From assembly GCF_009498235.1 (NCBI RefSeq), contig NZ_CP044205.1:1049716-1113715 (forward strand): 64,000 nt of DNA, read 5' to 3'. Below, in pieces: positions 26,634 to 31,643 of the stretch. The notes beneath the pieces are model-generated. The model saw only the letters and a list, made by a program, of their open reading frames with translations. It searched no databases and was not told the origin of the DNA. Position numbers and translations under genes: made by a program. The stretch's first letter is position 1; each line of letters begins with the position of its first letter. The stretch comes from Candidatus Methylospira mobilis. Its GTDB lineage: Bacteria > Pseudomonadota > Gammaproteobacteria > Methylococcales > Methylococcaceae.

Positions 26634-27392
26634 TTACACAGCCGGTTCAGCCGAAGGCGTAATACCAGATTGCCGGTCGTCAGGCAGGCTTTGAATTCCG
26701 TACAGGCTTAACAGTACGGATACTGCGACCAGTCCTAATGAAAGCGGCGTTTTCGGCAGGACCAGCAAAGTGAGGGCGGTTACAACAAATAATATCTGCA
26801 ACAGCTTTTTCTTCGACTCATAACTCAGCGCGTAGTTTTGTTCCCAGTCGCGGAGAATGTCTCCGAGAAAGTGCGATTTCAGTAGTTGCGTGTGCAGCCT
26901 CGGCGAAGAACGCGCCAGATAATAGCTGGTGAGTATCAGAAACGGCAAGGTTGGGATACCGGGCAGGATCATTCCTATAATCGTCATTACAAAGCTGGCG
27001 GAGGCCTTTAAAAGCAGCCAGATACGTAGTTTGCCCGTAGCTACAATCGGCTGTGCGCGCAGCATTTCCGTATGGGTCTGCGTTGCGTCGTCTGATTTCC
27101 CTGCCGGTAGCGCCTTCCAGGCCGTCAGGCCGGCGCGAATGGCCTCGGCAACAGAGTTTGCCAGTTGATTCGGGCTATCGCACCCGGGAGTGAAATCGAC
27201 GTTGAGCGTAGCAGCGTTCAGATCGATATAGGCGTGATCTATATTGGGCTGCCAGAGCAACGCCGCGATAATTTCACGGCATAAGCGTCTGTGCTTTGCT
27301 TGAAACAATACGTGGCATTGGATGTACAGCGCATTGCAGCCATTTGAAAATGAAATTTCGAATTTCGGCGCGCCGTGACCTTTTTTGTGCAT
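26634..27392 (-). CDS. Membrane protein with HMA-like N-terminus and DUF454 domain
   Basis: A 252-residue protein from ATG 27392 after GGAGG (9 bp). The N-terminal 90 residues resemble a heavy-metal-associated fold (FEISFSNGCNALYIQCHVL, HAYIDLNAATLNVDF) but have no CxxC. The C-terminal half is a DUF454/YbaN-type inner-membrane domain (LLLKASASFVMTIIGMILPG, LPFLILTSYYLARSSP). It is the last gene of the decayed bufferin/redox operon and is itself intact. A metal-related envelope role is suggested by the fusion and the neighbours. Confidence 0.72.
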   Translation of the reverse strand: MHKKGHGAPKFEISFSNGCNALYIQCHVLFQAKHRRLCREIIAALLWQPNIDHAYIDLNAATLNVDFTPGCDSPNQLANSVAEAIRAGLTAWKALPAGKSDDATQTHTEMLRAQPIVATGKLRIWLLLKASASFVMTIIGMILPGIPTLPFLILTSYYLARSSPRLHTQLLKSHFLGDILRDWEQNYALSYESKKKLLQILFVVTALTLLVLPKTPLSLGLVAVSVLLSLYGIQSLPDDRQSGITPSAEPAV

Positions 27393-27482: not shown

Positions 27483-28091
27483 TTACTTCGGCAATGCCGA
27501 GTCTGTGCCGAGCTGAAGTTTGTTGATCCAAGCGTCCAGACCAAGCATGCCAGCCCCGCCAAACAATAGCGGTAACAGCATGGTCAGATCCAGCAGTGGC
27601 AATTTGTAGTTGCCGTGGCCGCTGTCGGTAATCGCATAGCCCGATAGCAGCTCCGCATAGCTTGACCATTGCGCAGGCGAGTGCACACTCGCAATGGCTA
27701 CCAGGGTAATGGTTATCAGAGCAAAGCTGAAAAACCGCGTGGCTATTCCAGGCAATAACGATGCCGCGCCGATCAATTCGAACCAGGTAGCCAGCCACCA
27801 GTTTGTTTCCGTGGAAAACAGGCTGAAAGGAAACGGAAAGCTGAGATCGGTAAACCAATTTTCGCCGTACAGTTTCATCAATCCCGCTTCCCCGAACTCA
27901 TAAGCGAGAATCAAGCTGAGAAAAAATGGTGGTATCAATGCAGCTTTACCATTCAACCAGTTTGATAGCTTACGGTAACCTTCGACTGTCCTGCTTGGCG
28001 TCGGCAGCCGGATCAATGCCTGAGCAGGACAAAGTGGACAGGTGTTTTCCGCAGTTTGATGGTGGGCTTGGTTTTTACTGCAATCGTTCAT
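27483..28091 (-). CDS. DoxX family membrane protein
   Basis: A 202-residue protein. ATG 28091 is taken because GGAGCAAACC stands before it, though the frame stays open upstream into the bufC remnant. The N-terminus has CPLCPAQ. Four hydrophobic segments follow, with the DoxX markers ILAYEFGEAGLMKLYGENWF, ELIGAASLLPGIATRF and PLLDLTMLLPLLFGGAG. DoxX-like subunits (GigT/BufD type) accompany the MNIO and its partner in bufferin operons, possibly moving electrons at the membrane. It is intact while its operon partners are broken. Confidence 0.82.
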   Translation of the reverse strand: MNDCSKNQAHHQTAENTCPLCPAQALIRLPTPSRTVEGYRKLSNWLNGKAALIPPFFLSLILAYEFGEAGLMKLYGENWFTDLSFPFPFSLFSTETNWWLATWFELIGAASLLPGIATRFFSFALITITLVAIASVHSPAQWSSYAELLSGYAITDSGHGNYKLPLLDLTMLLPLLFGGAGMLGLDAWINKLQLGTDSALPK

Positions 28092-28810
28092 GGTTTGCTC
28101 CGTAGCTAAGGCAGTTTGCGGTAAAGGCGCTGTAGCGGCTATGCCACCCCGCTGTCTGAGTTGGTGAAGAATATCCAGGCCGAATGCAATAATTGCATCG
28201 GCATCGGGCGACTGCATTTCTGTTGCCAATTGCAGCAAGGCTTGCTTTCCGGATAAAACGCCGTTTGCCAGCAGTCCGATCAGACGTGCAGTCGCGGTGC
28301 GTTGATCTCGAGAAATTGAGCCTGATCGTCTCGGTCGCGAAAGCCGAAAACATATGTTTCCTCCTGCATGCGCTCTTGAAAGGACTCTTGTCGCCACGGT
28401 TGCCATTTTTGCCAATCGTGTTGTTCCGGTCCGATACGGTGTACCGGGTAGGCATAGCGCAATAGCGTTCTTACCGGCATGAAAATGATGCGGTTTTTCA
28501 GTAGATCGCCGTTGTTTTCCATCGGCTTTTCCTCAGCTTGTGCGATGGCGAGCACCAGTTCCATCCATTCGAAATGCGCAAGCTCGTTCAGAAAAGGCGG
28601 ATCGGAAGGGTCTGAGCGTTCATGCTGAAGGAAGTTGATGAATTCGTCAGGTATTTGGCGGTAAAACGGCGACAGGCAGCGATGCCGGGCAATAAAGTCC
28701 TCGACCAGGTTTTCCCAGCGCCGTTCGCCCAGCAGCCCGTGGCTGATTGGAAAACAGCTCAACAAACTGTCTTCTATTTTATTTCTCAGCAAACCGGCGT
28801 AGATATCCAT
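28092..28810 (-). pseudogene. Frameshifted bufC (DUF2063 partner protein)
   Basis: The N-terminal 176 codons (28810 to 28280) read as a DUF2063/HvfC-type partner of MNIO enzymes: FIARHRCLSPFYRQIPDEFI, FLNELAHFEWMELVLAIAQ, FGFRDRDDQAQFLEI. At about 28300 the frame breaks and stops. One frame over, the family C-terminus continues as ARLIGLLANG, KQALLQLATEM and AFGLDILHQLRQRG. One missing base between AACGCACC and GCGACTGCA restores it. The shifted frame then runs without a stop into doxX. BufC normally helps the MNIO dock the precursor; here it would be truncated by about a third. Confidence 0.8.
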
Positions 28811-28939
28811 ATCTGCCGTTGCAACGCCCTGTGGCGGCTGAACAGCGCGCGGATTCGCAAATACTGCGTAAACTCATGCTGGTAACGTTGAAAAGACGGG
28901 AGCGGGGTTGTTGCGCGCACTATCATTGCGATTACTCCT

Positions 28940-29176
28940 TCAGGCCGTGCGTTTTAGCTGGCTGACTTGATGGATGCGTTGCCGTTCGGCTATCTCTCCC
29001 ACTTCGGACAGCAGATGTTCCAACGGCGGAATATTAAAATCGCGTTCCAGCAGGGTCGGGAACACGCCAAACGCGTCATATGCCGTATCCAGCAAATCCC
29101 AGACCGGATCGATCACCGGCTGTCCGTGAGTGTCGATGATCAAATCGGGTTTTTCCCGATCGTGTCCGGCGACATG
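28940..29176 (-). pseudogene. 3' remnant of bufB (DUF692/MNIO)
   Basis: Only about the last 78 codons survive, starting with HVAGHDREKPDLIIDTHGQP and continuing DPVWDLLDTAYDAFG and PTLLERDFNIPPLEHLL. These are the conserved C-terminal segments of DUF692 multinuclear iron oxidases that convert precursor cysteines to thiooxazole-type groups. Roughly the first 200 codons, including most metal ligands, are gone. The remnant is joined directly to the bufA coding sequence in a different frame. It cannot encode an active enzyme. Confidence 0.82.
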
Positions 29177-29396
29177 CCTTGGTCTTGGCGGCCGTCGCCG
29201 CGTCGGGCGCTTTTTTAGCGCTGCATTTGCCTTCGCCGCATTTTCCGGCCTTCATCTTGTCGCTCGCTTCCGCGACCACCGTAGCGTTGGGCAGCGTTTT
29301 CATTGCGAAGGGATTTTCGCTTGCGTTCACGGAGGGAGAGAGCGCAACGGAAGCAGCAATAGCGCCCAGAGTCAGCGATAAGGTCTTGTTGTTCAT
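29076..29396 (-). pseudogene. bufA bufferin precursor fused out of frame to the bufB remnant
   Basis: From ATG 29396 (MNNKTLSLTLGAIAASVALS) the product has a signal peptide cleaved near VNA, a Cys motif (KAGKCGEGKCSAKK) and an Ala/Lys/Asp-rich stretch. This is the EGKCG-type bufferin/HvfA precursor, a secreted copper-binding RiPP. After about codon 73 the reading enters bufB sequence in the wrong frame, giving an Arg/His-rich nonsense tail to 29076. The first 60-70 codons could still yield a secreted Cys peptide, but without an MNIO it would stay unmodified unless served by an enzyme elsewhere. Confidence 0.78.
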
Positions 29397-29480
29397 GTCG
29401 TATTCCAAGGGTAATGATGGCCGAAAATATCAAAACAAATAGCGGGACAGAGCGCACATGATTTCAATAGGATGTTTTAT

Positions 29481-29720
29481 TCATGTGCGTACTGTTTTTT
29501 TGATGCGTTCCCGTGCTTCGTCGCTGAGTCCGGCATGACCGGATTGATGCCGATCATCCAGCCGGTTAACCGCTTTGCGTAGAAACTTCAGTTGTTTCTC
29601 AAAGTTCGAGCAGGCGGAACAAAGCCAGAGATGGATGCGCAGCTCAATGCGTTTCATGCGCGTCAAGCGCTGATCCATCCCTTGCGACAGCAGGTAACCG
29701 GCTTCCTTGCAAGTCAACAT
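29481..29720 (-). CDS. Zinc-finger anti-sigma factor
   Basis: A 79-residue protein whose ATG overlaps the sigma stop (TAATG). LTCKEAGYLLSQGMDQRL and HLWLCSACSNFEKQLKFL give the H-x3-C-x2-C zinc-finger of ZAS-type anti-sigma factors (zf-HC2). It is small and soluble with no membrane helix, so it would bind the adjacent ECF sigma in the cytoplasm, possibly in response to thiol or metal stress. The gene is intact, whereas its cognate sigma gene is frameshifted. Confidence 0.85.
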   Translation of the reverse strand: MLTCKEAGYLLSQGMDQRLTRMKRIELRIHLWLCSACSNFEKQLKFLRKAVNRLDDRHQSGHAGLSDEARERIKKTVRT

Positions 29721-30329
29721 TATTCTGCCTCCCGGCTGTTTTCAAACCAGCGATATTCCAGGCATTGCCGCAAACTCATACGGGCACGGTAGAGGATCAC
29801 CCCTACGTTGGTCGCACTGCAATCCAGTTCATTACAAATTGCTTCGTTGCTCATGTCGTGTAACTCTTTCAGGATAAACACCTGGGCCATTCTGGGCGGC
29901 AAGCGCTCCATACAGCGCTGTAAAAAATCGAAAAACTGATGTTGTTCCAAAGTCTTGACGGGATTGCCCCAGCGCGCAGGGCGTGTATTCCAGTGTCCGT
30001 CCTCTCTAAAAAAAATCATCGGCATCCGTTTCGCCGGGTAACGCGGCGGCGCTATCCTCGTCCAGCGGCTGTTCGCGTCGGCTGCACCGGAAATGATCGA
30101 TGATCTTGTGTTTGAGTATGCCGGTCAGCCAGGTGCGCTCGCTGGACAGTCCGGCACGCTGATGATGCGCGGACAAAGCGGCCAGCAGGGTTTCCTGCAC
30201 CATATCTTCGGCAGTGCTTTCGTTTTGAACCCGCAGCAGCGCAAAGCGGAAAAGATAGTCGCCGTGTCCGTCCAGCCACTGTTCGGGCGTGGAACTATGA
30301 CTGAAATCCCGTGATTGCATTACATCCAT
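29720..30329 (-). pseudogene. ECF sigma factor split by a T8 tract
   Basis: Region 2 is read from 30329 (YLFRFALLRVQNESTAEDMV, TWLTGILKHKIIDHFR) and region 4 from about 30025 to 29720 (LPPRMAQVFILKELHDMSNE, CSATNVGVILYRARMSL). The two frames meet at a run of eight A on the plus strand (30008-30015). With seven, the reading continues DDFFREDGHW and gives one protein of about 202 residues. This could be a real loss, transcriptional slippage or a homopolymer error. Such sigmas control bufferin and gig-type metal-stress operons, which fits the neighbours. Confidence 0.82.
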
Positions 30330-30362
30330 ATTTAATAATGAATCTTGTTGCCTGTTACCGGT

Positions 30363-31083
30363 TTATACTGAAATGCTAAGCCGTATCAACCATAGGGGAG
30401 CATGGTTTAACACCCAGGCCTCGAAGGTTTTATCCAGTCCTGTGACGATCAGGATGCCTACTATCAATAGTAAGCATCCAAGCAGCTTCTTTCCTGTGTT
30501 GCCTGTAGCCGACAATCCGGTCTTGAAGCGCAGTATGGCCTGGTGAGACAAGCTACCCATCACGATCAGAGGAAGGCCCGCACCGAAGCCAAACAACGCC
30601 ATGATCAATGCGGCCTGGCCCAGATTTTCTCCCTGACCGGCCAGCGTGATGGTTGCACCAAGGGTGGGGCCGACACAGGGGCTCCAGACAACGCCTAAAA
30701 TCAGACCGAACAGAAACTGGCCGGTCAAGCTATCGCCGGATATATGTTCGAGCAGAGGTTGCCCGTCGCTGCTTAAACCTGATGCGGTGGAGGCAAACTT
30801 CTGCTGCAAACGTCCGGATAGCAATATCAGGCCGAACAGGATTAACAGAACGGCGGCGATGTTGCGGAGCAGAGCCTCATCCAGGCCGATCAACTTCCCT
30901 ATCGTTGCCAGGAAGATGCCGACTACCGCAAACGACAGGCCCAGCCCGAACGCCAGGCCCCAGCCCGTGCGCGGTCAAGGCCGTGCCGACGAGTATCGGA
31001 ATCAGCGGCAATACGTACGGAGACAGCGCGGAGAGTCTGCCTGCAAGGATACTGAATCCGTAAACGCCTAATGCAGCCAGCAT
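30363..31083 (-). pseudogene. CcdA/DsbD-type transmembrane reductant conduit, frameshifted
   Basis: The N-terminal part from ATG 31083 reads LAALGVYGFSILAGRLSALS and PLIPILVGTALTAHG. The frame is lost near 30967 and resumes in another as GLAFGLGLSFAVVGIF and LIGLDEALLRNIAAVLLILF down to 30363. The family moves electrons across the inner membrane through two membrane cysteines. The second is kept (VVWSPCVGPTLG), but the first has become Tyr (LSPYVLPLIP instead of SPCVLPL). Both lesions argue for loss of function. It follows the thioredoxin-like gene. Confidence 0.8.
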
Positions 31084-31117
31084 GGTCAGTAGCTCAAAGC
31101 GCTTTTTTGAGCAACGC

Positions 31118-31472
31118 TTAGATACCCTGTTTGCTGGTATCGCCGAGGCTGCGCCCCATTTCCCGCCCGCCCTTGAACATAATGAGCGTGCTTTGTCTGT
31201 CGGCGTTGAAAGTTTTCACTACCTGTTTTTGCCCATCGAAATCGACGCGCAACGCGTTGATATGCCGGTAACTGTCCTGTTTGAGCAGTTTCTCGATGAT
31301 GGGAGGCTTGCGCTCTGCATGTCGGGTACCAATCCGCATGGATGGAAATCAGAATCGGCTGACCTTCTTTCTGCAGACGATCGAACTTTTCCTGCGTAAA
31401 GGGTTCTTCGCCGGCAAAGGCCGGCGCGGCGAGCAATAGAGATAGAAAAGCGGAACGGAGTAATTTGATCAT
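31118..31472 (-). pseudogene. Secreted thioredoxin-like protein, frameshifted, active-site Cys lost
   Basis: ATG 31472 has a GAGG site and a signal peptide (KLLRSAFLSLLLAAPAFAG). The domain begins FDRLQKEGQPILISIHADW, then YPTCRAQ, where a WCPTC motif would be expected. The codon is TAC, one G-to-A change from TGC. Just after RAQ the frame shifts, and the rest reads PIIEKLLKQDSYRHINAL, ALRVDFDGQKQVVKTFNA and LIMFKGGREMGRSLGD in the alternate frame to 31118. It would have passed electrons with the CcdA homologue in the periplasm. Confidence 0.82.
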
Positions 31473-31513
31473 TTTACTGCCTCGAAAGAACAAAGCGATG
31501 CCGTGACTTGACA

Positions 31514-31643
31514 TCAAAACCAGTTGAATAACCGGTGACCGGCTGCTCCCGGCATGGCCATCAAGATGATAAGTGTCGTCATCCATAATGCACGGGCCTT
31601 TGGTGGCGCAGCATTTATCGTTCATTCTACCCATCAGTGACAT
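31514..31643 (-). pseudogene. Possible small membrane protein with frameshift
   Basis: From ATG 31643 or 31625 the frame gives MNDKCCATKGPC and then becomes polar. One frame over it gives LWMTTLIILMAMPGAAGH, ending NWF at a stop at 31514. Joined, this resembles a short Cys-containing single-pass membrane protein of the kind found in metal-resistance loci. Its position just before the broken thioredoxin gene makes it a candidate further member of the decayed operon. Support is limited to this pattern. Confidence 0.35.

Follow-up and report, generated by a model that had tools for sequence, protein, structure and literature searches.

Eight genes on the minus strand and their lesions

The window analysed here is a stretch of 64,000 nucleotides from Candidatus Methylospira mobilis (G000:C1:1049716-1113715), taken from genome G000, a 4.70-Mb assembly in a single contig that is rated 100% complete and 0.64% contaminated. 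Three-frame translation and frameshift-tolerant alignment revealed eight genes on its minus strand from 31472 to 27483, in the order trx (thioredoxin-like), ccdA, extracytoplasmic function (ECF) sigma factor, anti-sigma factor, bufA/hvfA, bufB/hvfB (MNIO), bufC/hvfC (DUF2063) and doxX/hvfX. When compared with intact relatives by frameshift-aware alignment and codon by codon, six of the eight (trx, ccdA, sigma, bufA, bufB and bufC) proved to be broken. There are seven disruptive lesions, comprising six frame-breaking indels (a 0.7-kb deletion across bufA and bufB among them) and one nonsense codon, together with two Cys to Tyr changes in motifs. A sequence-only reading of this DNA had described a decayed operon with at least six independent lesions, and the comparison bears this out. 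Pfam and NCBIfam models back the names of CcdA, sigma, anti-sigma, MNIO, DUF2063/HvfC and DoxX/HvfX. The trx and bufA fragments matched no Pfam family at E <= 0.01; trx is named from its WxPTC motif and its orthologues.

The two upstream genes are both pseudogenes. In trx (31094..31472), whose orthologues are open in the related loci L108-L111, a TGC to TAC change at 31328-31326 replaces Cys49, the first Cys of WCPTC, by Tyr (WYPTC), one base is inserted near 31304 (+1), and a TAA nonsense codon follows at 31120-31118. In ccdA, a CcdA/DsbD-type membrane gene (30363..31083; Pfam DsbD_TM 38.4 bits against a threshold of 27.1), TGC to TAC at 31017-31015 gives Cys23Tyr (SPCVLP to SPYVLP), and there is a net loss of 8 bases relative to L108 near 30966. 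We take the altered cysteines of both motifs to be catalytic, as in their families. The ECF sigma gene (29720..30329; Pfam match) is shifted by +1 through an extra T at 30008-30015, forming T8 where the relative L109 has an in-frame T7. The anti-sigma gene behind it (29481..29720, 79 aa) is apparently intact, scoring 66.2 with NCBIfam antisigmaE (cut-off 50) and 21.5 with Pfam zf-HC2, slightly below the threshold of 22.2.

A single deletion damaged both bufA and bufB. The precursor gene bufA (29076..29396) tracks that of the relative L067 to about residue 74 and is then fused, at a junction placed by alignment and codon comparison (29176..29178), to residue 205 of bufB. Beyond the junction the bufA frame, which is not that of bufB, continues until a stop at 29076, giving an unrelated tail in place of the lost C-terminal Cys region. 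The equivalent of the deleted span is 717 bases in L067, as derived from coordinates. No full-length MNIO is left: 204 of 282 residues are gone, and the remnant (28940..29176) holds the C-terminal 78 of about 282 residues, matching PF05114 positions 198-261 of 263. The sequence-only reading was right that bufB had lost most of its length, and it needs the correction that bufA is broken as well. Further down, bufC (28092..28926) is a pseudogene with two frame shifts, one base lost near 28857 (-1) and a +2 or equivalent shift near 28297; its middle piece scores 173.1 with the HvfC model (cut-off 142). It has no stop ahead of doxX, so that a single 310-aa frame (28415-27483) contains the end of bufC and the whole of doxX. 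The latter (27483..28091) is open, with 202 aa and an HvfX score of 103.8 (cut-off 80).

The last four genes are the set of the HvfABCX or Buf_EGKCG-oxazolin clusters (Haemophilus-type 'oxazolin'; 'fontiphorin'), in which a precursor with KCGEGKC accompanies MNIO, DUF2063 and DoxX proteins. NCBIfam models for HvfB, HvfC and HvfX match the window pieces or the intact relative L067, and passages of PMC12452194 list MNIO, DUF2063 and DoxX in EGKCG/oxazolin clusters. The window differs from these in that three of the four core genes are broken and that ECF sigma/anti-sigma and trx-CcdA genes lie upstream. PMC12452194, in the parts concerned, places sigma/NrsF genes in Buf1 and not in Buf2 clusters, and its main text contains no occurrence of 'thioredoxin'. 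Bufferin 1 (DUF2282) clusters share the MNIO, DUF2063 and DoxX partners, and an ECF sigma factor is reported for them in a section of the same paper, but the 82-aa precursor piece in the window matches no Pfam family at E <= 0.01 and hence not DUF2282. This piece carries GKCGEGKCS and scores 19.3 with NF050137 (cut-off 19.5) and 22.7 with NF050188 (cut-off 95), the remainder being deleted; the intact L067 precursor is also low on NF050188 (36.2). The fragment therefore seems to resemble the EGKCG/HvfA kind weakly.

The same operon in relatives

A DoxX of this type was found in 28 of the 151 Methylococcales genomes searched, the source genome included, and larger stretches were read for the 27 others, giving 28 loci. 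Genes bufA, bufB, bufC and doxX occur together in 20 of these. Contig ends cut two loci (L066 and L128), and L126 holds doxX, sigma and anti-sigma only. In L067 the order sigma, anti-sigma, bufA, bufB, bufC, doxX is the same as in the window, with every gene open and 61-74% identity per gene. In L083/L130, L118, L122 and L124, bufA and doxX are present but neither bufB nor bufC lies between them, and in three of the four a sigma/anti-sigma pair is near, so these look like precursors without a local MNIO.

Alignments with at least 60% coverage were obtained for 138 gene copies from 29 loci. Two of these copies are internally broken, and both are doxX: a frameshift in L072 (G015) and a TGA in L080 (G124). 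The reference sequences and a distant bufB from L108 are counted in the 138; L073, L122, L126 and L130 (the last being the same place as L083) are excluded. Frameshifts in the alignment at the end of doxX in L070, L082, L117 and L123 were left uncounted, as open frames of 211-243 aa exist there, and so were stops in the last ~12 residues (bufC of L079; bufA and doxX of L112). L125 (G121), with a short doxX and a TAG within the match, falls under the 60% limit and thus outside the 138. Frames are therefore mostly intact in relatives, with doxX alone sometimes broken. Damage is more frequent in doxX than in any other member of the operon, and this gene seems to be lost most readily. Decay of several genes was seen, among the loci read, in the source genome only.

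A different kind of loss was found in G011 (L073:6904-7226), where a deletion scar joins sigma codon ~68 to doxX codon 147. Because this scar lies between the same neighbours as in G012, G011 has, judged by the junction, lost the same operon independently.

The trx-ccdA pair is less widespread. This CcdA was matched in 5 other genomes of the 151 (the match in G004 being only 35% identical), and the reading of trx and ccdA covered four orthologues. In G014 (L108:6146-11731), trx-CcdA is followed by two small Cys-rich proteins rich in NPCA repeats, then by an MNIO-DUF2063 set and a DoxX-like frame; the likenesses of the precursor to DUF2282 and of the last gene to DoxX were judged by eye. In G077 one ccdA copy stands after a sigma/anti-sigma pair. 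A decayed ccdA fragment of the same genome (L113:546-1495; six TGA), a second case of CcdA decay, adjoins a small Cys-rich protein and an MNIO gene. The stretches of G102 and G125 gave no buf match beside ccdA. A thiol-reducing trx-CcdA pair serving such peptides is a reasonable inference from these arrangements.

Decay weighed against error, frameshifting and partial function

Were most of the lesions products of sequencing or assembly error, the operon would be truly intact, and the sigma lesion, an extra T in a homopolymer, is what such an error could produce. The 0.7-kb deletion with its clean junction, the nonsense codon, the two TGC to TAC changes and the 8-base loss, on the other hand, are not homopolymer errors. 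Two large families in the same genome served as a control. For ABC ATPase domains there were 64 matches (from the best 150 of 173 candidates scored), 62 of them above the cut-off; one of about 61 is split over two frames and none has internal stops. RND pumps gave 18 matches, 17 above the cut-off, again with no internal stops: 14 of 14 full-length genes lie in one open frame (two of these, apparent mutual duplicates, being matched in two pieces of a single 1080-aa frame), and the remainder are one partial match in a 618-aa frame and the one under the cut-off. Summed over both families, the background is about one frameshift per ~69 kb of conserved coding sequence, or ~0.05 expected in 3.4 kb. 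Since these genes are nearly all unbroken, frameshifts are rare in the assembly; general sequencing error is an unlikely cause of the lesions, general assembly error was rejected on the same background, and a truly intact operon behind mostly erroneous lesions is very unlikely.

To gauge how far decay has gone, positions invariant in all other aligned sequences were scored in the window copy. DoxX stands out with 4 of 44 changed (R59S, A111S, W138S and Y168D in L067 numbering), the most of 26 sequences (0 to 3 in the other 25). In bufC one of 22 is changed. The counts for trx (7/57; 4 to 12 in the others) and ccdA (10/116; 4 to 28), based on four orthologues, are not unusual, and each includes the motif Cys. 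The terminal branch of the window doxX is the longest of 26, barely (0.325 against 0.321 for the next), and those of bufC and sigma rank 4th of 23 and 2nd of 20. These values are suggestive of relaxed constraint on DoxX, and the decay as a whole is probably recent. The genomes compared include no other species of the genus.

The search for a second buf locus, which the sequence-only reading had proposed alongside the comparison with related Methylococcales, was successful. MNIO matches number three in the genome: the remnant in the window, an hvfABC set at 1.82 Mb and a methanobactin-type locus at 2.43 Mb. The 1.82-Mb set (L004:6969-9032) is intact, with HvfB at 421.6 (cut-off 360), HvfC at 290.3 (cut-off 142) and the HvfA motif at 31.6 (cut-off 19.5). 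It shares with the window operon an HvfA-type Cys-rich precursor, HvfB and HvfC, but L004 holds no DoxX, sigma or trx-CcdA match. Because the two copies are 62% identical over the bufB C-terminus and 41% over bufC, the 1.82-Mb set is, by sequence divergence, an old paralogue and not a fresh copy; the idea that a recent duplication had prompted the decay was rejected on the same ground. Searches of the genome gave no further DoxX at E <= 1e-10, no further CcdA at 1e-15 and no other close sigma factor (the next best scoring 27 bits). Directly downstream of the intact hvfABC (L004:9203-10077) are transposase-like frames, IS3-type by eye.

With this paralogue in the genome, the broken operon could be partly alive: anti-sigma, DoxX and a short HvfA would be made, and the HvfB and HvfC of the 1.82-Mb locus would modify the short precursor in trans. 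The anti-sigma and DoxX frames and the N-terminal part of HvfA are indeed open, precursors encoded apart from MNIO genes are reported in passages of PMC12452194, and in four relatives bufB and bufC are missing from the interval between bufA and doxX. The precursor, however, lacks its C-terminal Cys region and carries an unrelated tail, DoxX shows the four changes and the marginally longest branch described above, and the gene for the sigma factor that presumably drove the operon carries a frameshift. We regard this possibility as very improbable.

The combined evidence makes it very probable that the locus is a decayed operon, probably a recently decayed one, made up of an HvfABCX-type cassette, a sigma switch and a thiol-reducing pair. 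In the ancestor, thioredoxin and CcdA would have formed the thiol-reducing pair and the ECF sigma and anti-sigma factors the switch, ahead of a cassette for a ribosomally synthesised and post-translationally modified peptide (RiPP). There HvfB (MNIO) and its partner HvfC would modify the cysteines of a secreted Cys-rich precursor for metal binding, with HvfX/DoxX in the membrane; by analogy with the systems in the literature, the peptide probably bound copper. Indels, the nonsense codon, the 0.7-kb deletion and the two motif-Cys losses would then have disabled six of the eight genes, and with these disabled no modified peptide is expected from the locus. The anti-sigma factor would be left as an orphan and DoxX would be drifting, and the second, intact hvfABC probably covers any remaining need; such redundancy may be why the operon was lost. 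The sequence-only reading had taken the strain to be losing, or to have lost, this copper-peptide system: the loss at this locus is well supported, but the chemistry is kept at 1.82 Mb.

Several points weigh against decay of a single operon. The lesions are known from one assembly of one isolate, and the sigma lesion, sitting in a homopolymer, could on its own be an error. Damage to doxX is not special to this genome, given the copies broken in L072 and L080 and the short one in L125. Apart from the indels the sequence is well kept, none of the invariant positions being changed in sigma (41 positions), anti-sigma (8), bufA (11) or the bufB remnant (18). Finally, the trx/ccdA comparison involves only four orthologues, and none of the stretches read for the 20 complete loci in relatives contains a trx/ccdA match, so a common operon of all eight genes is inferred from their order here. 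The preserved sigma sequence, unchanged over both halves, and the T8 run at the break would also fit programmed frameshifting that restores the sigma factor, making the lesion regulatory. Eleven relatives, however, are in frame at this point without a shift, and the genes on either side are dead through other lesions, which makes regulatory frameshifting exceedingly unlikely.

If decay is accepted, the locus amounts to a knock-out made by nature, with an intact paralogue elsewhere in the same genome. Together with the independent loss in a relative, this suggests that the ECF-linked cassette is dispensable. The decay itself would be ordinary genome erosion, and the knock-out offers a ready comparison for studying cassette function. 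In methanotrophs copper governs methane oxidation, and peptides made by MNIO enzymes have recently been recognised as one means of handling this metal.

Flanking genes and the methanobactin-type locus

The sequence-only reading had also counted a small membrane protein and an HMA-DUF454 gene as operon members. The DUF454 gene (26634..27392, minus strand; PF04304 80 bits, threshold 35.1) had no match in the 30 loci searched, one of which (L004) is from the same genome, and is probably only a neighbour; no model matched its N-terminus, labelled HMA in that reading. By eye, the four relatives read have no shared small open reading frame (ORF) ahead of trx. Membership of the DUF454 gene and of the small ORF at 31.6 kb is thus unsupported. 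Of the three genes said to survive, anti-sigma looks intact, DoxX is open with the signs of relaxed constraint already noted, and nothing found here ties DUF454 to the operon. That the flanking genes are intact holds by ORF lengths alone. Scans of the whole window with Rfam (gathering threshold) and for tRNAs gave no matches.

The third MNIO locus (L005:4455-9020; G000:C1 ~2.431-2.436 Mb) carries methanobactin-type genes in the order mbnB-mbnC-mbnA-mbnM, with scores of 390.8 bits for MbnB (cut-off 325), 280.9 for MbnC (185) and 551.6 for MbnM (285); an MbnA-like peptide of 31 aa lies between mbnC and mbnM (29.4, cut-off 24). In two Methylocystis plasmid loci, by contrast, the precursor, either mbnA or a precursor domain carried by a sigma factor, precedes B-C-M. 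MbnC was found in one of 201 genomes of the order and one of 369 of the class, in both cases the source genome. The nearest MbnB proteins within the plasmid collection searched are 54-60% identical and come from Methylocystis and Methylosinus. According to the portion of PMC4688376 concerned, the occurrence of methanobactin may be limited to a small number of type II methanotrophs, and none of the titles listed in a literature search reports a methanobactin operon in Methylococcales.

This locus, too, is damaged. An insertion element, IS3-like by eye and present in at least 12 full-length genome copies of 95-100% identity (among the best 40 of 47 candidates scored), abuts mbnB. The native mbnB codons begin FTQGSTLE and the MbnB of Methylocystis parvus begins MQIGFNFTLNGTLD, from which we conclude that mbnB has lost its start and about six codons. 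Two of the three MNIO loci thus appear to be disabled. It is conceivable, if rather doubtful, that the lineage is remodelling its MNIO copper peptides, and that the gain of the methanobactin operon, the decay of HvfABCX and the insertion at mbnB are all linked by one change in copper supply. If so, the gained operon would be of a kind known from plasmids of alphaproteobacterial methanotrophs, and one of three MNIO loci would remain undamaged. Adjoining the methanobactin genes (L005:2158-4335) is a gene for a 725-aa LanM-like protein, which scores 120.9 bits against a LanM cut-off of 304.

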